A stretch of DNA of 64,000 nt from Hallerella succinigenes (GTDB taxonomy: Bacteria > Fibrobacterota > Fibrobacteria > Fibrobacterales > Fibrobacteraceae), in NCBI RefSeq assembly GCF_002797675.1, contig NZ_PGEX01000001.1, positions 2,232,001-2,296,000 on the forward strand, read 5' to 3'. The notes beneath the pieces are model-generated. The model did no database searches. It was not told the DNA's origin and saw nothing but the letters and a program-made list of their open reading frames with translations. The position numbers were made by a program, and so were the translations under genes. Of this stretch, positions 1 to 7,457 are shown piece after piece. Within the stretch, counting starts at the first letter, position 1; each line of letters starts with the position of its first letter.

Positions 1-1608
1 ACGAACTACCGCAAAAATGAAATCTCCGACATTCCCGACACTGTTGAAAACAAGCCAAAAACTGAAGTGACGAATCTTGCTCCGCATCTTTTCGGAGGGT
101 TTGCCACGCAAGAAGCAACACACAATGTCATACAAGAACTGAAAACTTCTATGCTTGACGAATTGGTCGCGAATAGTTCGGACAAGCCTATTTCAGATAT
201 TGCTCCCAAAATCGAAGCTGCGTTGCAAGAAGCGGTTAAACAGATTGCTCCAGAAATATTCCCTGTACAAGGCAACACCGTCGCATCGCCACAAACGGAA
301 TATAATCTTTTTGGCGAAGCTGATTCTCAAGCAACAAAAAATCAAAAGACAGAACAAATTGTTGAGACAGCTACTCGAAATGTCAAGGCCATATTGAAGG
401 AGCATTTCGGAGAGGGTGTTGCAAACAAGGCTACGGAGATTGTTGCTGAAGCCACCCGCGATTTTGCTGAAACGCTCGTTCAAAAACAGCCGTCTTCGTT
501 CATCGTTGATCCGCTTTTGAAAAGTGATTTCATCAGCCGTGCAGACTATGGTGATATTGGTAAGGCTAGCAGTTTCCAGAGTTCGTTTGTTAAGTCAATG
601 AACAATTATTTTGGAATTACCGAAAATGCCTATAACAATCCTTTTGCACAAGAAGGCGTTCTTGAAAAATTTGGCATAGATATGTCTCAGAGACTTTCAA
701 CCGAAGTCTTGGCGAATGCAACCTTTGCAGGAACCAACGATTTAGGCAAGAATGTAGAGCATGAGATGAGCGACAACGAAGTCGAAAAGAACTTCATGAA
801 TGCTTGCTACAACATTTTGGAAGAACAGACTGAACCCGATGCTAAATACGGCAACATTGCCCGTTCTTGGGGACCCTTCAAGGAAGCTCTTCGTCAATGG
901 TTTGAACGCTATTCGATGACGAATATCGATAATGTCGGTCGTTACAAGATTTTCTTGAAGGATTTGTTTAAGAACTCTGCAAGTATATTCCGCAAAGCCA
1001 TTACACAAGCTCTCAAGGAATACAGACCTATTCGCGATGCCTTTGTTGCCGATCGTCGTAAGCAGGAAATGCAGGAGGCGTTGCCATTCAAAGTCAAGAC
1101 ATCTTATGCGTATTCAAGCGACTTTGTCGATTATAAGCCAATTATGAAGAGTATGCTTCAACCGTTCAAGCTCAAAGCAGAATATCCAGGACGCGATAAT
1201 GAAATCGCCTTTATTGAGTTTCTTGAAAAATTGCCCACGGTTGAATGGTGGTTTAAGCAGAATGATGACGGCAAGGATTTTTACGCTCTCAAGTATTTCA
1301 ATACCACTGAAAATCGAGAACGACTTTTCTATCCCGACTGGATTGTGAAATTTGTAGATGGTCGCATCGGCATTTTTGATACCAAGAGTGGATTTACAGC
1401 AGCAAATCCTGAAGGTCGTGCGGAAGCCCTTTCGAAAAAGTTGCGTGATTTGAACGAAGAGGCGGTCAAACGCGATGGTCGCGAAAAATTCGTCGGCGGT
1501 TTGTGCGTTCGTGAAAATAAACTGTGGTATTGCAACAGTGCCGAAAAATACCGTTACAAGGATGAAAAGGGCAACCTTGCTGAAGGTTGGAAATTGATGC
1601 AAGGGTAA
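1..1608 (+). CDS. Type III restriction-like helicase/endonuclease, C-terminal part (5' end outside window)
   Basis: The frame is open from the first base, so only the last 535 codons are present and the true start lies upstream; an in-frame GTG at 67 is unlikely to be the start. The helicase motor expected in this family would be in the missing part. Near the C-terminus (about nt 1330-1400) there is a PD-(D/E)XK-like nuclease core: YPDWIVKF, then an Asp-Thr-Lys (FDTKSG), followed by a helix with Glu and two Lys. This pattern is typical of the C-terminal nuclease domain of type III Res subunits and related DEAD/DEAH nucleases. It is inferred to cut DNA, probably in phage defence. The partner methylase, if any, is outside the window. 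The ~440 bp after it hold no protein gene. Confidence 0.6.
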   Translation, partial: TNYRKNEISDIPDTVENKPKTEVTNLAPHLFGGFATQEATHNVIQELKTSMLDELVANSSDKPISDIAPKIEAALQEAVKQIAPEIFPVQGNTVASPQTEYNLFGEADSQATKNQKTEQIVETATRNVKAILKEHFGEGVANKATEIVAEATRDFAETLVQKQPSSFIVDPLLKSDFISRADYGDIGKASSFQSSFVKSMNNYFGITENAYNNPFAQEGVLEKFGIDMSQRLSTEVLANATFAGTNDLGKNVEHEMSDNEVEKNFMNACYNILEEQTEPDAKYGNIARSWGPFKEALRQWFERYSMTNIDNVGRYKIFLKDLFKNSASIFRKAITQALKEYRPIRDAFVADRRKQEMQEALPFKVKTSYAYSSDFVDYKPIMKSMLQPFKLKAEYPGRDNEIAFIEFLEKLPTVEWWFKQNDDGKDFYALKYFNTTENRERLFYPDWIVKFVDGRIGIFDTKSGFTAANPEGRAEALSKKLRDLNEEAVKRDGREKFVGGLCVRENKLWYCNSAEKYRYKDEKGNLAEGWKLMQG

Positions 1609-1698
1609 TGGCTATACAAATGCTGAAATAACTTAAGGAGACTTCTTTCAACACTTTAGATAATTGTATTTGACATAGACTGAAAAGATTCTTGTTTC

Positions 1699-1850
1699 CC
1701 TATCCTGAAACTACCACCTTCAGGGAATTTACACAAGAAATCAACGGATCTTACGCACCATTATCGGGGCGTGGGTCGTTTGTGCTTATTGTGTAAAAGG
1801 GTGTGGTAGCCCTCAGGATAGGTAAGTGCATTCGACACCACGCCTTTTTT
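1699..1850 (+). ncRNA. Candidate structured RNA: long rod-like hairpin with an alternative terminator
   Basis: A nested fold covers 1699-1822. A perfect 10-bp stem pairs 1699-1708 with 1813-1822. A 7-bp stem pairs 1711-1717 with 1803-1809. A 9-bp stem pairs 1728-1736 with 1789-1797. An apical stem pairs 1753-1759 with 1766-1772 with one mismatch and a 6-nt loop. Downstream, 1837-1844 can pair with 1800-1807 (8 bp, one G-U), directly followed by six T, which is a terminator. Its shorter form 1838-1844 pairs perfectly with 1768-1774. The terminator and the rod share bases, so they exclude each other, as in attenuators. A TTGACA at 1670-1675 could be a -35 box, but the -10 is poor. The rod shape recalls 6S RNA, but no conserved sequence proves it. 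Confidence 0.5.
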
Positions 1851-1958
1851 ATTCATAAAAAAGCGTTGGCATAGTGAAGTTACGACAATATGAATATGAA
1901 TCAATGGAGGTTGTTATAAAACTATAGAGTAGATGACATCGTGTTTTTAATCAGGTTT

Positions 1959-2005
1959 GCCGGGCAAACTGCCCGGCAGGTTATGGATTGTTGTCTCATG
2001 ACAAC
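1959..2005 (+). other. Two short hairpins in the leader of the EndoU gene
   Basis: A perfect 8-bp inverted repeat with a 3-nt loop lies at 1959-1977 (GCCGGGCA arms). A second 6-bp hairpin with a 4-nt loop lies at 1990-2005 (GTTGTC arms). Neither is followed by a T run, so they are not ordinary terminators. They may be part of the toxin gene's leader or remnants of an insertion boundary. The rest of 1851-2047 holds nothing recognisable. A 61-codon frame at 1941-2126 that overlaps the EndoU gene has no family resemblance and is taken as chance. Confidence 0.35.
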
Positions 2006-2047
2006 GTGTTGTGAAAAATCTTCCGCCGCAAGGCAAGGAGAAGTATC

Positions 2048-2698
2048 ATGGGCCTTAAAGCCTCAACCCAGCCGGGGGTTGTTTACAAACTACCGGAATT
2101 GCCAAAGGAGTATCAGCATTTGCTGAATGAACTCCCGCAAAAGTATATCCAAACAACGCTTGTTTCTGAAGAGGAACTCGCAAAGCAGAATCGTCCAGAA
2201 CTTTATCAGACCGAGGTCCCGAATAATTCACCATTAAAATACTTCAAGGGTGATTTAGAAGGGCTGGAGCAGACGGAACACTTTGAATCTGGCCTAATAA
2301 AACATATATTTAATGGGGAGGTCAAACTCGCTTCTGCGGGCAAAGGGAAGAAACGATTGGAGGCGACGGGTTACCATACCGAGGTAATCAAGAATGCTGA
2401 AGGACAAATTATTCCTGGGACAAAATCATCCCCAGATACCAAAGGAGTATATCAAGGTAAAGTCAAGGTCAACGGCATCCGAAAGCGCACAATGGGCGGA
2501 ATGTCTACATTCTTCCCCGAACACTGGTCGCCGCAACATATCGTGAATGCGATAAACGAGGCATACAAAGGTAAAAGCGCAATAGATCCTTCTGGTAAGG
2601 TATTTTATGGATATTCAAAGGAAGGTGTGAAAATAAAAATGCGAATGAGTCCAAATGGAAAAATCTCGAGTGCATTTCCGATTATGGAGGAAAACTAA
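2048..2698 (+). CDS. EndoU-family nuclease, polymorphic-toxin-like
   Basis: A 216-residue protein. The C-terminal ~140 residues match the bacterial EndoU nuclease pattern: His86 in KHIFNGE, His110 in GYHTE, a Lys-rich KVKVNG stretch near 138-142, and STFFPEHWS at 153-161 followed by a helix. EndoU domains in bacteria are usually RNA-cleaving toxin tips of contact-dependent or type VI effectors. Here the domain stands almost alone, with a short Pro/Gln-rich N-terminal part and no signal peptide. The start is well set: AAGGAGA lies 6 nt upstream of the ATG, and an in-frame stop at 2012-2014 rules out a longer version. The next gene overlaps it by one base and probably encodes its immunity protein. 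How it would be delivered is not visible here. Confidence 0.8.
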   Translation: MGLKASTQPGVVYKLPELPKEYQHLLNELPQKYIQTTLVSEEELAKQNRPELYQTEVPNNSPLKYFKGDLEGLEQTEHFESGLIKHIFNGEVKLASAGKGKKRLEATGYHTEVIKNAEGQIIPGTKSSPDTKGVYQGKVKVNGIRKRTMGGMSTFFPEHWSPQHIVNAINEAYKGKSAIDPSGKVFYGYSKEGVKIKMRMSPNGKISSAFPIMEEN

Positions 2699-3063
2699 TG
2701 AATTACAATTACGCAATTAAATACCTTGAATTTGAAGGGAAAAAGGACTTTCTATACTTTGCCTTTGAAGAAGAAACAGGAATACTCACGAACTTCTTCA
2801 CTGGAGAAGTTGTTAATTTCCACAAAACTATCCTAGAGCAAATTGAACAGGTCCTTTCCAAGAAGAAAAGACATGTTGAATGCTCTGGTAACGAGTGTTA
2901 TTGGAATATCGGCCTCAAGGAAACCCTAATTGTTGATAATTTCGCAAATGAGGGGGAGCCTTCGGAAATCACCGTCGAAACATCTGAACTCAAACGATTG
3001 ATTGACGAATGGATTGCGGCCCGCGACAAGTTTAAGGAACAGAAAGCCAAGGGCGAAATTTAG
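2698..3063 (+). CDS. Probable immunity protein to the EndoU toxin
   Basis: A 121-residue acidic protein without signal peptide or membrane segment, starting on the last base of the EndoU gene (stop and start share an A). I recognise no family. The role is inferred from position: a small acidic cytoplasmic protein translationally coupled to a polymorphic-toxin domain is normally its specific inhibitor. It has two Cys close together (ECSGNECYW, about residues 60-68) and a charged C-terminal helix. Alternative: an unrelated small gene of the island. Confidence 0.6.
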   Translation: MNYNYAIKYLEFEGKKDFLYFAFEEETGILTNFFTGEVVNFHKTILEQIEQVLSKKKRHVECSGNECYWNIGLKETLIVDNFANEGEPSEITVETSELKRLIDEWIAARDKFKEQKAKGEI

Positions 3064-3088
3064 GCCAAATTAATATTGCTCTGCACAT

Positions 3089-3137
3089 TGCGGTAACCCC
3101 GTTTAGGTTCCGCAGTTTGCGCCTATATTCCAAGAGG
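3089..3137 (+). promoter_or_regulatory. Hairpin, possible -10 box and RBS before the DUF4417 gene
   Basis: A hairpin with arms TGCGG-AACC and GGTTCCGCA (3089-3098 with 3106-3114, one bulged T) lacks a T run. TATATT at 3124-3129 would suit a -10 box, with no clear -35. AAGAGG at 3132-3137 is the ribosome-binding site for the ATG at 3143. If TATATT is the -10 box the leader would be only a few bases long, so the two elements may not act together. Confidence 0.3.
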
Positions 3138-3142
3138 TAAAA

Positions 3143-3769
3143 ATGAACGAACAATATTCAAGCCCATACGAAATTTTGTATAGGGGCAAGGACTTCGATG
3201 AAAAGGAAATTCCTAAACGCGTACAGTCCTTTTCAATGTCGCTTGCGTATCCGGATTATGGTGCATGGCTCCATTATTACGAAAAAGAGAAACTCTGTAA
3301 AGCTTATACAGACGGTCTCTCGCCATATCTTGGATATATCAAAAAATTTCCTGGAAGTCTCACACTTGATAGAAGCATCGGATGGTGCGACCATATAGAC
3401 GTTCAAAAGGATTCTGACAATTTGAATAAGCATAGTCGAGAATTATTCGAGGCTAACGGTATTCCGAACATAATCAATGTGCGCTTTGGAGACAAAAAGT
3501 CATATCCTTTTTGTTTTCGGAATGTCCCGCAAAATGCAGTGCTGTTTATCGGAAACCAGGGAACGCAACGGTATGCTGATTGCAAAATGGTTCAATTTGC
3601 AGGAACGATGGAATTAATAAAAAGGCAAAATCCTCGTGTTTTACTTGTTTACGGAAGCGTGGATAAGAGGATATTGGACGAGTGCAAAAAACGAGACATT
3701 TCTCTAGTCCGCTATCCTAGCCAATGCGAATTGGCGCATGCTAAAAAGTTTTTCACTCCAGAAACATAG
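3143..3769 (+). CDS. DUF4417 domain protein
   Basis: A 208-residue cytoplasmic protein. The family is suggested by the run from about residue 70: LTLDRSIGWCDHIDVQ, then GIPNIINVRFGD, FCFRNVPQNAVLFIGNQG, and LLVYGSVDKRI. DUF4417 proteins are uncharacterised and often found in mobile or defence-rich regions. The part 130-170 recalls a Rossmann-like nucleotide-binding core, which is inference. It has its own RBS and probably its own promoter. Its 3' end overlaps the convergent DUF4143 ATPase gene by 17 bp. Confidence 0.65.
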   Translation: MNEQYSSPYEILYRGKDFDEKEIPKRVQSFSMSLAYPDYGAWLHYYEKEKLCKAYTDGLSPYLGYIKKFPGSLTLDRSIGWCDHIDVQKDSDNLNKHSRELFEANGIPNIINVRFGDKKSYPFCFRNVPQNAVLFIGNQGTQRYADCKMVQFAGTMELIKRQNPRVLLVYGSVDKRILDECKKRDISLVRYPSQCELAHAKKFFTPET

Positions 3770-5090
3770 CCATGTAGTACGGCAGTGTAACCATCTTGCC
3801 AGCAACACCGATGTTGTTTTCGGAAAGTTTGTAGCAAACCTTGGCTGCGTAGTTGTCGTTATTCAAAACGGTCTTTGTCGACTTGGAGCGTCCCGTTGTC
3901 GCCTTGACTTCAATAATGGCGAGTTCGCCGCCGACATTTTCTACAAAGTCAATTTCTAGCCCAGATTCTTTGCGGAAGTAGAATAGTTTGCGACCTTGTT
4001 TAGAGAAACAGTCTGCAATGATGTTCTCGTAGATGGCGTCTTTATAGAATCCCAAATCGCCGCATAGAATCTTGGCCGCGGTGCCGCGTTCCAGCATGGC
4101 GACAAACAGGCCGGAATCCTGCACATAAATCTTAAACGTATTCTCGATTTTGTAGCCTTCAAGGGGTTCTGCGATGTTGGTCAGGTTGTGGCAAATGTTG
4201 ATGATGCCGCAGTCGTAGAGCCATTGGATTGCGGTTTGGTAATTTTCGGAACGGCCCTTCTTTTCTAGTTGCGAATAGACAAACTTGTTGTTTTCCTTCG
4301 CAAGTTGAGCGGGAATCGAATCAAAAACGCGATTGATGCGGCCAAGAAGCGTGCGGTCGATTTCCTCGTTTTCGTTCTCGTCAAGGTGCTTGCCAAAGTC
4401 GTCCTTGTATTCTTCGAGAATGTCCTGCTGTTCCTGCCAAACGACATTCATGTCGTTCGTCTCGACAAATCGAGAAACGACATAAGGGAACCCGCCTACA
4501 CAAAGGTATTCCTTGAAGTAGCGGAGCATGGCGTTGTGCGTCGCCTCGCTTACGGGTTCCTTTTTCGCGAAGCATTCCTTCAGGTAACTGATGACATTTT
4601 CGTCGATTCCCTTTGCCCACAGAAATTCCTCGAAATCCATGGGTTTCATATAAATTATTCTTTCAAAACCGGTCGGGACGCCTTTTCCCTTTTTACGGTT
4701 GTACCCCTTAATACCAAGCAGGGATCCAGTACAGATGACATCGTAGCGACCGTCTTCCATAAAAGGCTTGATGCTGGCGCGGGCGTTTGCACATTCCTGA
4801 ATTTCATCGAAGACGATGACGGTCTTGTTCTCGACAAAATGCACATTAGGAAAAAGCGCGGAAAGGTCTATGGTAATCCGACTCACGTTCAGGTCTCCCT
4901 CGAAGACCTTCTTCGCATTTTTATTTTCCTTAAAGTTGATATAGACGACGCTCTCGTAGTTGCTGCGGGCGAATTCCAGGACGCTGGACGTTTTGCCGAT
5001 TTGACGCATTCCCTTGACAACCAGGGCCTTCTTTTTGCCCCCCGAGATCTTCCAATTTTCAAATTCTTTAAGGATTTTTCTCTTGAACAT
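3753..5090 (-). CDS. AAA_14/DUF4143 ATPase (first copy)
   Basis: A 445-residue protein. Walker A is GMRQIGKTS (27-35) and Walker B is VIVFDEIQE (91-99), followed by the GSLLG sensor-like motif. The C-terminal DUF4143 part has a restriction-endonuclease-like pattern near 380-398 (EIDFVEN then AIIEVKA). The family is very common in accessory regions; its biochemical role is unsettled. The ATG lies only 11 bp from the nearest operator palindrome (5102-5158) and no good ribosome-binding site is visible, so the mRNA may have a very short leader. A second copy follows at 5348-6652. Large open frames on the opposite strand here are shadows. Confidence 0.9.
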   Translation of the reverse strand: MFKRKILKEFENWKISGGKKKALVVKGMRQIGKTSSVLEFARSNYESVVYINFKENKNAKKVFEGDLNVSRITIDLSALFPNVHFVENKTVIVFDEIQECANARASIKPFMEDGRYDVICTGSLLGIKGYNRKKGKGVPTGFERIIYMKPMDFEEFLWAKGIDENVISYLKECFAKKEPVSEATHNAMLRYFKEYLCVGGFPYVVSRFVETNDMNVVWQEQQDILEEYKDDFGKHLDENENEEIDRTLLGRINRVFDSIPAQLAKENNKFVYSQLEKKGRSENYQTAIQWLYDCGIINICHNLTNIAEPLEGYKIENTFKIYVQDSGLFVAMLERGTAAKILCGDLGFYKDAIYENIIADCFSKQGRKLFYFRKESGLEIDFVENVGGELAIIEVKATTGRSKSTKTVLNNDNYAAKVCYKLSENNIGVAGKMVTLPYYMAMFLE

Positions 5091-5101
5091 ATCCCAAAAC
5101 T

Positions 5102-5158
5102 ACACTTTTCCAACCGAATTAGTGCATTAAAAGCGCACTTTCCCAACCGAAAAAGTGT
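5102..5158 (-). promoter_or_regulatory. Twin palindromic boxes upstream of the first DUF4143 gene
   Basis: Two 24-bp imperfect palindromes lie at 5102-5125 and 5135-5158, starting exactly 33 bp apart. On the coding strand both share the core TTCGGTTGG-(A/G)-AAAGTG with a CACT arm 5'. The same pair with the same 33-bp spacing precedes the second DUF4143 gene. The boxes end 12 bp before the start codon, so they could act as operator sites or as RNA hairpins in the leader. From 5159 to 5347 nothing else is recognised. Confidence 0.65.
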
Positions 5159-5347
5159 AAAATTGTCGTTTTTACGCAAATTTCATCAATTTTTAGTCAA
5201 ATCTTCGGCTCCATCAAGAAATCAATGACATTCATGGTCAAAATTCCATTTTCGTCATAGAAGGTCGGCACAAAATACCGTTCACATCCTTCTAGGAATT
5301 ATTTTTGCATATTTTGCAGTTTTTCTTTAAAACTCGTAAATTTTAGC

Positions 5348-6652
5348 CTATCCCCACTTTTCTAGCAGTCCATCCAGTCTATCTGCCATAAAGAGCGGGA
5401 TGTTCAGCATCTTTCCGTCGCGGGAGAGGTTGCGCATCGAGAATCGCACCATCAGGGGTGCGTCGTACTGTTTGTCGTAATACTTGATGCTGGCTGCTTT
5501 GATGTTTGTGCCCGCCTTGGCTTCAATGGGGATAATCGTGTTTTCTTTTTGGATAATGAAATCGACTTCGTGGAAGTTGTCGCTCCAGTAACGCGGTGCG
5601 ACATCAAACATCCCCGACAAATTCTGCAATACAAAATTTTCGGTGAGAGCGCCCTTGAATTCCGTAAACAGGCGGTTCTGTTCGGCAAATGCCGAAGTCG
5701 CAAGCCCCGCTTTTTTTCGCAATAGCCCGACGTCGCCCATGTATATTTTGAAAGATGTCAAGTCATCGTAGGCGGATATCGGGAGGCCCGGTTTCGTGGA
5801 ACGGAAAACTTTCTTCACGAGATTCGCGTTGTTGAGCCAATTCAGGGCGTTCTCGTATTCCCTGGCGCGCGCACCGGGCTTTACGGCCGAATACAGGAAC
5901 TTCTTGTTTTCGCGGGAAAGTTGCGACGGTAGCGAATCCCAAATGTATTGAATTTTCGGCACGTCGGTTTTGTCCGCATGCTTTGCAAAATCCGCTTCGT
6001 AAGCTGTTAGAATATCAGAAAGAACCTTGTCGACAGCGGCGACGTCTTGATCTTCGACCCAGTTAAGTACAGATTCCGGCATGCCGCCTGTCACAAAGTA
6101 CGTTTTCAATTTTTCTTCTAGCGGTCCCATGAATGCCTGCGGAATGTTCTCCGGTGTTTCGATGGTGTCGAGGTATTCAACAAGGTTCTTGTCTCCACTC
6201 GCAAGCAAGAACTCGGTGAATGTCATGGGATACATATCCAAAAATTCAACCTTGCCCACGGGGAATCCGGATGCAAGCTTCAATCCTAAAAGGGAGCCGG
6301 CGCCGACAACGCTATATCGCGGAGCGTCTTCGCAAAAATACTTCAATGAGTTTAAAGCGCTTTCGCAAGCCTGGATTTCGTCAAAGATTATCAGAGTGTT
6401 CTCGGTTATCTTTTTTCCGCTCGCCATTGCGAGGTTCGCAAGGATGCGCTTTACGTCTTTGGTCTGCTCGAAAAACTGCCTGTATTCGATTTGCTTGTCA
6501 AAATCGATGTGGAGAAAACCGTCCGGGAAAGATTTGCCAAACTCCTTCAACACCCAAGTCTTGCCCACTTGACGGGCGCCGCGCAAAAGCAGGGGCTTGC
6601 GCCTTTTAGATGTTTTCCACTTATTCAGTTTTTCAAGGATGATGCGTTTCAT
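5348..6652 (-). CDS. AAA_14/DUF4143 ATPase (second copy)
   Basis: A 434-residue paralogue of the product of 3753-5090. Walker A is GARQVGKT (25-32), Walker B is LIIFDEIQ (87-94), then GAGSLLGL, and the C-terminal nuclease-like strand pair is EVDFIIQ followed by IPIEAKAG. The two copies are clearly diverged, so this is not a recent duplication. A divergent leader of 196 bp carries the twin palindromes plus two extra half-site-like repeats. Role unknown; the Walker motifs predict ATP hydrolysis. Confidence 0.9.
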   Translation of the reverse strand: MKRIILEKLNKWKTSKRRKPLLLRGARQVGKTWVLKEFGKSFPDGFLHIDFDKQIEYRQFFEQTKDVKRILANLAMASGKKITENTLIIFDEIQACESALNSLKYFCEDAPRYSVVGAGSLLGLKLASGFPVGKVEFLDMYPMTFTEFLLASGDKNLVEYLDTIETPENIPQAFMGPLEEKLKTYFVTGGMPESVLNWVEDQDVAAVDKVLSDILTAYEADFAKHADKTDVPKIQYIWDSLPSQLSRENKKFLYSAVKPGARAREYENALNWLNNANLVKKVFRSTKPGLPISAYDDLTSFKIYMGDVGLLRKKAGLATSAFAEQNRLFTEFKGALTENFVLQNLSGMFDVAPRYWSDNFHEVDFIIQKENTIIPIEAKAGTNIKAASIKYYDKQYDAPLMVRFSMRNLSRDGKMLNIPLFMADRLDGLLEKWG

Positions 6653-6681
6653 GCCTTAAATATAGGATGCTTTTATCCAGA

Positions 6682-6812
6682 AATCACATAAAATTATAAA
6701 AAAGTGTGATTTTTTCCACGAAAAACATTAAAAAAGTGTGATTTTCGAAATAAACGCACTTTTCCTACCGAATTATTGACACTTGACTGCACTTTTTCCA
6801 CTGAAAAAGTGC
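6682..6812 (-). promoter_or_regulatory. Operator array upstream of the second DUF4143 gene
   Basis: Two 24-bp boxes lie at 6756-6779 and 6789-6812, again 33 bp apart; the second is a near-perfect palindrome with arms GCACTTTTTC and GAAAAAGTGC. Closer to the gene, the 15-bp repeat AAAAAGTGTGATTTT occurs at 6699-6713 and 6731-6745 (32 bp apart). A further inverted repeat joins AATCACA (6682-6688) to TGTGATT (6704-6710). The boxes share the CACTTTTT core. They suggest cooperative binding on one face of the DNA, by an unknown protein or by the ATPase itself. Confidence 0.6.
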
Positions 6813-6848
6813 ATCCTTCTGTGCTTAGTGTTTTTTGAATGAGAAAGC

Positions 6849-7058
6849 CTAAACCGTTTCCCGCTTGAATTCTTCGGCGGTGGCGTCAGGGCCATCCCAC
6901 CAAAGTTTATTCGAATCGTCGTAAAGCATTTTCGCTGTATTCGATTCCATAAAATCTACAAGGACATCCTCGGGAGACCTCTGGGTTTCCTTTGCGATTT
7001 TCTCAACCGCCATAAGCGCCGTCAAGTCCATGGAAAACAAAATTTTGTCGTTTGCCAT
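6849..7058 (-). CDS. Small DUF3791-associated protein, third gene of TA-like operon
   Basis: A 69-residue protein with a helical N-terminus (about 8-40) and the segment KMLYDDSNKLWWDGP near 43-57, a sequence type that often accompanies DUF3990 genes. It lies 3 bp downstream of the DUF3990 gene and is surely cotranscribed. It is inferred to be an antitoxin-like or adaptor component; no DNA-binding motif is evident. Confidence 0.6.
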   Translation of the reverse strand: MANDKILFSMDLTALMAVEKIAKETQRSPEDVLVDFMESNTAKMLYDDSNKLWWDGPDATAEEFKRETV

Positions 7059-7061
7059 AGA

Positions 7062-7457
7062 CTACCTCAAAACCACCCGCTCGGATTTCACAAACCGGAG
7101 TTTAGAAAGGGCTGCCATCTCGTTACGAAGGTCAACGAATACGCCACTCCTGCGGTGAGCGACAATGCAGTGAAGCCAGGCGACATCAGCGGTATCGAAA
7201 TAAAAGCAATTCAGTCCGGTCGCATCCGTCACCGAAAAAGACGAAACAAAACCAAAGCGTTCATTCTCAGAAATCAGCCCGCGGTTTTTGGCTTTGGCCG
7301 TAGAAATCTTTGCGAAGTCTTCCGCCTGAGCTTTTGAAGATGTGAGGTAGAATCCTCTACCAAAATCCTTGAATTTCGCACACCTGTCCAAATCCGGTTC
7401 TTCCACGGCGCAATAGCTTCCGTGATAGAGAATCAATCCTGTTTCCAGCTGCTTCAT
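7062..7457 (-). CDS. DUF3990 protein (ADP-ribosyltransferase-like), possibly shortened
   Basis: A 131-residue protein. The diagnostic N-terminal motifs of DUF3990 are present: LYHGSYCAVEEPDL (10-23) and DFGRGFYLTSSKAQAEDFA (about 31-49). A later WLHCIVAHRR matches the helix before the usual central region. From my knowledge of the family, members are often longer, with a segment like YDxVxGxxAND after this helix; that segment is missing here, so this copy may be truncated or a short variant. The H/Y and GFYLT layout resembles ADP-ribosyltransferases, which is inference. It overlaps the upstream DUF3791 gene by 4 bp (ATGA). Confidence 0.75.
   Translation of the reverse strand: MKQLETGLILYHGSYCAVEEPDLDRCAKFKDFGRGFYLTSSKAQAEDFAKISTAKAKNRGLISENERFGFVSSFSVTDATGLNCFYFDTADVAWLHCIVAHRRSGVFVDLRNEMAALSKLRFVKSERVVLR

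Follow-up and report, generated by a model that had tools for sequence, protein, structure and literature searches.

Many genes of the AAA_14-DUF4143 ATPase family PDC-S01 carry arrays of short upstream repeats in which the step between copies is set by the protein subfamily; what is kept is the geometry and not a core sequence. The repeated words are private to individual genes, and this combination of subfamily-set spacing and gene-private sequence points to recognition and control of each gene by the protein that it encodes. Based on sequence comparisons, we regard it as likely that each ATPase recognises its own private array, through a predicted binding, and regulates its own promoter, array and gene forming a self-contained cassette.

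PDC-S01 is reported to be the fourth most common prokaryotic defence system, with approximately 39,000 copies (PMC12988326), and, in the rumen, the individual locus met most often (PMC13356809). Experimental validation of PDC candidates is mostly pending (PMC12988326), PDC-S01 is described in the literature with candidate status only (PMC12988326, PMC13356809), and in the open-licence literature on PDC-S01 no description of an array, an operator or a DNA ligand was found. For a family that is among the commonest candidate defence genes, that has no validated function and whose link to phage defence is presumed, the array represents a concrete handle, including a predicted DNA ligand for each protein and the prediction of a sequence-specific protein that works as a multimer with regular spacing. 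Further, the arrays would provide many naturally orthogonal protein-operator pairs and a means of following the movement of the cassettes.

Two ATPase genes and their boxes

The locus lies in a window of 64,000 nucleotides, the whole stretch of Hallerella succinigenes DNA that was analysed, and includes the following features:

3753..5090 (-): gene A, AAA_14-DUF4143 ATPase, 445 aa, PDC-S01
5102..5125 (-): gene A array, box 1, coding strand CACTAATTCGGTTGGAAAAGTG
5135..5158 (-): gene A array, box 2, CACTTTTTCGGTTGGGAAAGTG, 33 bp from box 1
~5190..5290 (-): remnant (C-terminal part) of a GxRR-type third ATPase from another subfamily, ..FVPTFYDENGILTMNVIDFLMEPKI
5348..6652 (-): gene B, AAA_14-DUF4143 ATPase, 434 aa, PDC-S01
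6684..6709 (-): gene B proximal box 1, TCACACTTTTTTATAATTTTATGTGA
6716..6741 (-): gene B proximal box 2, TCACACTTTTTTAATGTTTTTCGTGG, 32 bp from proximal box 1
6756..6779 (-): gene B distal box, gene-A-like word TTCGGTAGGAAAAGTGC, one arm degenerate (...AATTATTGA)
6789..6812 (-): gene B outer distal box, gene-A-like word TTCAGTGGAAAAAGTGC, 33 bp further out

Both genes are members of PDC-S01 (a PADLOC phage defence candidate; AAA_14 + DUF4143, COG1373) by PADLOC and Pfam, with E-values for DUF4143, AAA_14 and PADLOC PDC-S01 of 1.5e-27, 2.1e-22 and 1e-140 for gene A and of 1.4e-34, 7.4e-24 and 6.9e-169 for gene B; NCBIfam yielded no match above its cut-off, and PHROG no strong one. The two proteins are 33% identical. 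The first-pass annotation had described them as diverged and had placed 24-bp palindromes with the same core at 5102, 5135, 6756 and 6789. These boxes, with spacings of 33, 1621 and 33 bp, and thus the 33-bp step in both pairs, were recovered beyond chance in shuffles, although the palindromes are imperfect and one arm of the box at 6756 is degenerate, and the same core holds for both gene-A boxes (TTCGGTTGG) but not for those of gene B (TTCGGTAGG and TTCAGTGG). The pattern CACTTTTCCAACCGAAAAAGTG with up to three mismatches had 3 matches in the window against 0 expected (100 dinucleotide shuffles) and no further match in the 3.13-Mb genome, where the reversed control gave 0. As a motif of the family the TTCGGTTGG core was rejected, since its single matches elsewhere in the genome are as many as those of the reversed-pattern control.

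Several features had been absent from the first-pass annotation: the 23-bp step in another subfamily and the nomadic unit formed by array and ORF (see below for both), the third-ATPase remnant, which is 95% identical over 81 bp (5197-5276) to a same-genus relative, and the proximal gene-B pair (6684-6741; word TCACACTTTTTTA), whose 32-bp step scored 14.75 at lag 32 against a shuffle maximum of 9.8. Gene-A-like boxes lie on both sides of gene B, with the remnant between A and B, and the arrangement looks as if ATPase units had been inserted side by side.

The small ORFs upstream of gene B are adjoined by a DUF3990 gene (7062-7457, minus strand) that weakly matches ADP-ribosyltransferases and may be a neighbour of toxin-antitoxin or defence-island type. 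Additionally, the window includes at 1705-1863 (plus strand) a dispersed element some 100 bp long, whose ends are complementary (GGCGTGGGTCG ... CGACACCACGCC) and which precedes a T run. The element recurs at several sites in the same genome and in same-genus genomes, matches no Rfam family and is a candidate structured RNA or repeat.

Spacing across the genome, phyla and protein subfamilies

Altogether 22 DUF4143 matches were found in the genome, and about half of these genes have a significant upstream direct repeat, the repeated word differing from gene to gene: GCGGAAAAATGTAA three times at 33 bp, TTGGAAAAACGG and ACATTTTGCGATTT at 33 bp, and in further genes TTGCGCTTTT at 34 bp and TTTTACACGTTTTTA at 32 bp. 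A few have a palindrome upstream instead, and one GPKW-type gene has a step of 23 bp and not of about 33 bp.

Beyond this genome, 80 relatives of gene B were collected from Clostridia, Bacteroidota, Fusobacteria, Omnitrophica, Spirochaetia, Chlorobiota, Proteobacteria and Actinomycetota as well as one archaeon, using predicted start codons. The top lag was 32-34 bp in 50 of these 80 upstream regions, compared with 12 of 194 neighbouring genes at 31-34 bp (Fisher p 7.6e-23, where per-gene p-values overstate independence because the genes are related). The box of the gene-B subfamily consists of a variable word followed by AAAAATGTGATA, present in 2-5 copies at 32 or 33 bp.

A second sample of 209 non-redundant genes from many phyla was grouped by Walker A motif, rare subfamilies being thinly covered because sampling began from relatives of gene B. 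In genes with G[AVIMC]RQ (group A), the step was 32-33 bp in 72 of 134, that is in 72 of the 77 with a significant direct repeat, and about 40% of the group had no significant direct array. Those with GxK (group D) had a step of 23 bp in 11 of 14 (11 of the 12 with a significant direct repeat), and GPRQ genes were mixed, with 22-23 bp arrays in some and a single palindrome of about 24-48 bp in others; at four loci (L155, L174, L175 and L161), GPRQ-type ATPases of approximately 390 aa are preceded by a near-perfect palindrome of 35-47 bp and no array. The upstream regions of 240 neighbouring ORFs had no significant repeat at 22, 23 or 31-34 bp, and across a tree of 98 genes the step switches between 32 and 22-23 bp only 3 times.

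As a test of the 23-bp rule on new data, two sets of 299 and 395 further genomes were searched with a GxK protein, yielding 18 new genes with a top lag of 23 bp in 17 and of 46 bp in one. Their words were largely unrelated (GTGGATGAACGGTAGCGTA, GTGGTCCATCTGTATAGT, TGCCTGTTGAAA, GCCAACTTGGTGAATA), and with the step constant at 23 bp this means that the word turns over and the step stays. The earlier claim that the control sites are kept stands with regard to geometry, which is conserved per subfamily, but not for the TTCGGTTGG core.

Private words and specificity to the gene family

The scan for paired boxes proposed in the first-pass annotation was run on 20 whole genomes with the pattern AWWRTGTGA-N22-25-AWWRTGTGA, and 24 of its 25 matches lay directly before an AAA_14-DUF4143 ATPase ORF, the reversed pattern giving 0. 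The exception is a 3-copy array of GGTCAAGAAAATGTGA with a step of 33 bp (L147, 1495-1576) before a small DUF1540-like gene, with no ATPase within 1.5 kb; this orphan array may be what is left of a lost cassette, or the regulator may have a second target here. When two words were searched genome-wide, arrays were found only at the word's own gene, and the same was true for the word of gene A. The gene-linked repeats are specific to the protein family and, with the exception of L147, are confined within the genome to the promoter of their own gene.

For pairs of genes from different genomes with at least 50% protein identity, the median word similarity was 6.95 compared with 4.85 (p 1.7e-33), while different ATPases within one genome had a word similarity at baseline. 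Words thus track the protein and not the host genome, as expected if the reader of the word is encoded by the gene itself; in this regard, the within-genome half alone is independent evidence, because pairs of high identity share upstream DNA by descent. The association between the word and the winged-helix segment was not significant (p 0.06). Of the two explanations first offered for the boxes, autoregulation is the better candidate and, as far as the distribution of paired boxes indicates, the best-supported reading. A shared regulator is not supported: the other members in the genome have a similar step with different words, and word similarity follows protein identity and not the genome.

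Promoters and the unit of array and gene

In 13 Clostridia, the promoter TTGTAA-N17-TATAAT continues directly into box 1, and box 2 in turn continues into the ribosome site. More broadly, 43 of 59 array genes with a predicted sigma-70 promoter have an array overlapping the region from -35 to about +20, an overlap that, in most array genes with a predicted promoter, would correspond to the geometry of a repressor. Many arrays extend 100-190 bp upstream, past the promoter. In some genes, the array stops just upstream of -35, which makes activation possible. A sigma-70 promoter search at gene A found none.

When genomes are compared, the homologous DNA frequently sets in 60-170 bp upstream of the ATG, takes in the array and stops close to the end of the ORF, at the stop codon or near it; the flanks are unrelated, and array and ORF form such a homologous block even at 88-94% identity. 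A relative of gene A with 83% identity (genome G001) occupies a different locus; it retains box 2 and has three boxes in all, against two at gene A. In that genome, the flank on the downstream side (to 3739) is found on a contig without gene A, and the gene-A homologue on another contig. Within the genus, copy number ranges from 0 to 22. Plasmid copies were found in 59 of 72,556 records and phage copies in 12 records, and three of the four plasmid copies inspected had repeats at 32, 33 or 66 bp. By eye, no terminal repeats, target-site duplications or clean empty site were seen at L312, L316-L323 and the window locus. A 1.42-kb Acinetobacter unit was considered as an insertion sequence and rejected, as the compared copies mostly share their flanks, L312 being the displaced one.

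On an Acinetobacter plasmid (L312, 4735-4825), two copies of a repeat (CTGCCTATCCGGCAGTGAAC), which we take to resemble a type I-F CRISPR repeat, lie between two ATPase units. On a Glaesserella plasmid (L315, 3998-9269), a gene-B relative immediately precedes type III restriction-modification genes, and other plasmid copies adjoin HipA or RelE/ParE toxin-antitoxin genes.

Protein structure

The protein of gene B was modelled with a pLDDT of 94.4, and a search of the PDB by sequence found no relative. For the AAA+ part (residues 1-316), the best structural matches in the PDB were 2qen (Z 16.7) and 2fna (Z 15.3), both at 14-15% identity, followed by NB-ARC proteins and, further down by Z, Orc/Cdc6, which was also among the Foldseek matches (2qby, E 4.5e-06). 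When residues 204-434 were folded alone, the first half matched winged-helix proteins (CmtR, SqrR, Fur and ORC; Z 5-6) and the second half PD-(D/E)XK nucleases (Can2, McrC, DdmD and VRR-NUC; Z 5-7), middling values that fit these two modelled domains but do not prove them. Across 62 sequences, G25, K31, D91, E92, E377 and K379 are invariant and E362 and D364 nearly so, the Walker A/B and PD-(D/E)XK residues being intact.

Proposed function and alternatives

Many AAA_14-DUF4143 genes would, in our proposal, be a self-contained cassette of a private operator array and one ORF, whose AAA+/winged-helix/PD-(D/E)XK product recognises its own array. The word would probably be read by the winged helix that follows the ATPase domain and precedes the nuclease domain, and the protein would assemble along the DNA with the step fixed by its quaternary geometry, which may be 32-33 bp (three helical turns) for G[AVIMC]RQ, 23 bp for GxK, and either 22-23 bp arrays or one large palindrome for GPRQ. 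Given the position of the array on the core promoter or next to it, occupancy of the array most likely represses the gene, which could hold down the level of a potentially harmful ATPase-nuclease until its release. The array may also act in cis in mobility, in replication or in the nuclease's discrimination of self from non-self, the genes then being nomadic single-gene cassettes and a chromosomal counterpart of Orc-ORB or Rep-iteron systems; we hold this extension to be rather unlikely, and if true that the array serves mobility or self-recognition, it would change the understanding of the family.

A rival reading, that the array mainly serves movement or replication (as a transposition end, an iteron or an ORB-like origin) with regulation secondary and array and ORF as a mobile unit, is likewise rather unlikely. 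It would account for the homologous array-ORF block with its unrelated flanks at 88-94% identity, the copy number of 0-22 within the genus, the three adjacent ATPase units of the window, the iteron-like step of 22-23 bp and the putative Orc/Cdc6-like fold with its linkage-specific Orc-ORB precedent. However, the array is one-sided and located at promoters, the units are rare on plasmids and phages, and the inspection by eye yielded neither terminal repeats nor target duplications, nor a clean empty site. Control of all these genes by one global host regulator of the CRP/FNR type is improbable, even though many boxes read TGTGA-N6-TCACA, near the CRP consensus, with TGTGA at 32/33-bp steps and an inverted TCACA 6 bp away at five loci (L050, L053, L068, L076 and L117). 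That dyad is no common element, as it is missing from group D, where unrelated words recur at 23 bp, and from many group A arrays, and many arrays consist of half-sites in one direction only, which have a different conserved word (L079, L085, L098 and L116); words also differ inside one genome, and matches outside ATPase promoters are almost absent.

It is more doubtful still, to the point of being very improbable, that the repeats act in the mRNA leader, as hairpins or in translational control, and not as DNA sites. Some boxes do fall downstream of the start site and ahead of the ribosome site, and a gene A box can fold as a stem-loop, but this reading is at odds with the many arrays that reach past the promoter, with a fixed step near whole helical turns, which is a feature of DNA, with the many boxes that are not self-complementary and with an Rfam search of window positions 1500-7100 that gave no match. 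Chance repeats in A+T-rich DNA are a negligible explanation: the spacers are rich in A+T, short families of two copies, taken singly, often arise by chance, and single weak cases (e.g. L011) may be chance, but for the family as a whole chance is refuted by the shuffle tests, the neighbouring-gene controls and the new GxK set.

Comparison with known systems

The best structural matches of the AAA+ part, PAB2304 (2qen) and SSO1545 (2fna), are archaeal STAND-type ATPases, yet share only 14-15% identity with it, and to our knowledge neither has a known function or operator. CRP/FNR sites resemble part of the PDC-S01 arrays in their TGTGA-N6-TCACA, whereas other arrays have neither a dyad nor a TGTGA core, and the PDC-S01 arrays have a fixed step. 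In plasmid Rep-iteron systems, direct repeats at a step of approximately 22 bp precede a gene that is autoregulated by its winged-helix product; PDC-S01 differs from these in being chromosomal, in encoding an ATPase-nuclease and not a Rep initiator, and in the step of 32-33 bp in its main subfamily. The nearest analogy is Orc/Cdc6 with its ORB elements, which combines gene-linked repeats, as in PDC-S01, with an AAA+ and winged-helix protein, an architecture that PDC-S01 may share, and haloarchaeal genomes have several Orc/Cdc6 paralogues, each beside its own repeats, with the repeat sequence tracking the protein family (PMC3528665). In contrast to PDC-S01, Orc/Cdc6 lacks a nuclease domain and serves to mark origins of replication, whereas the repeats of PDC-S01 reside at the promoter of the gene with a fixed step of 23 or 32-33 bp.
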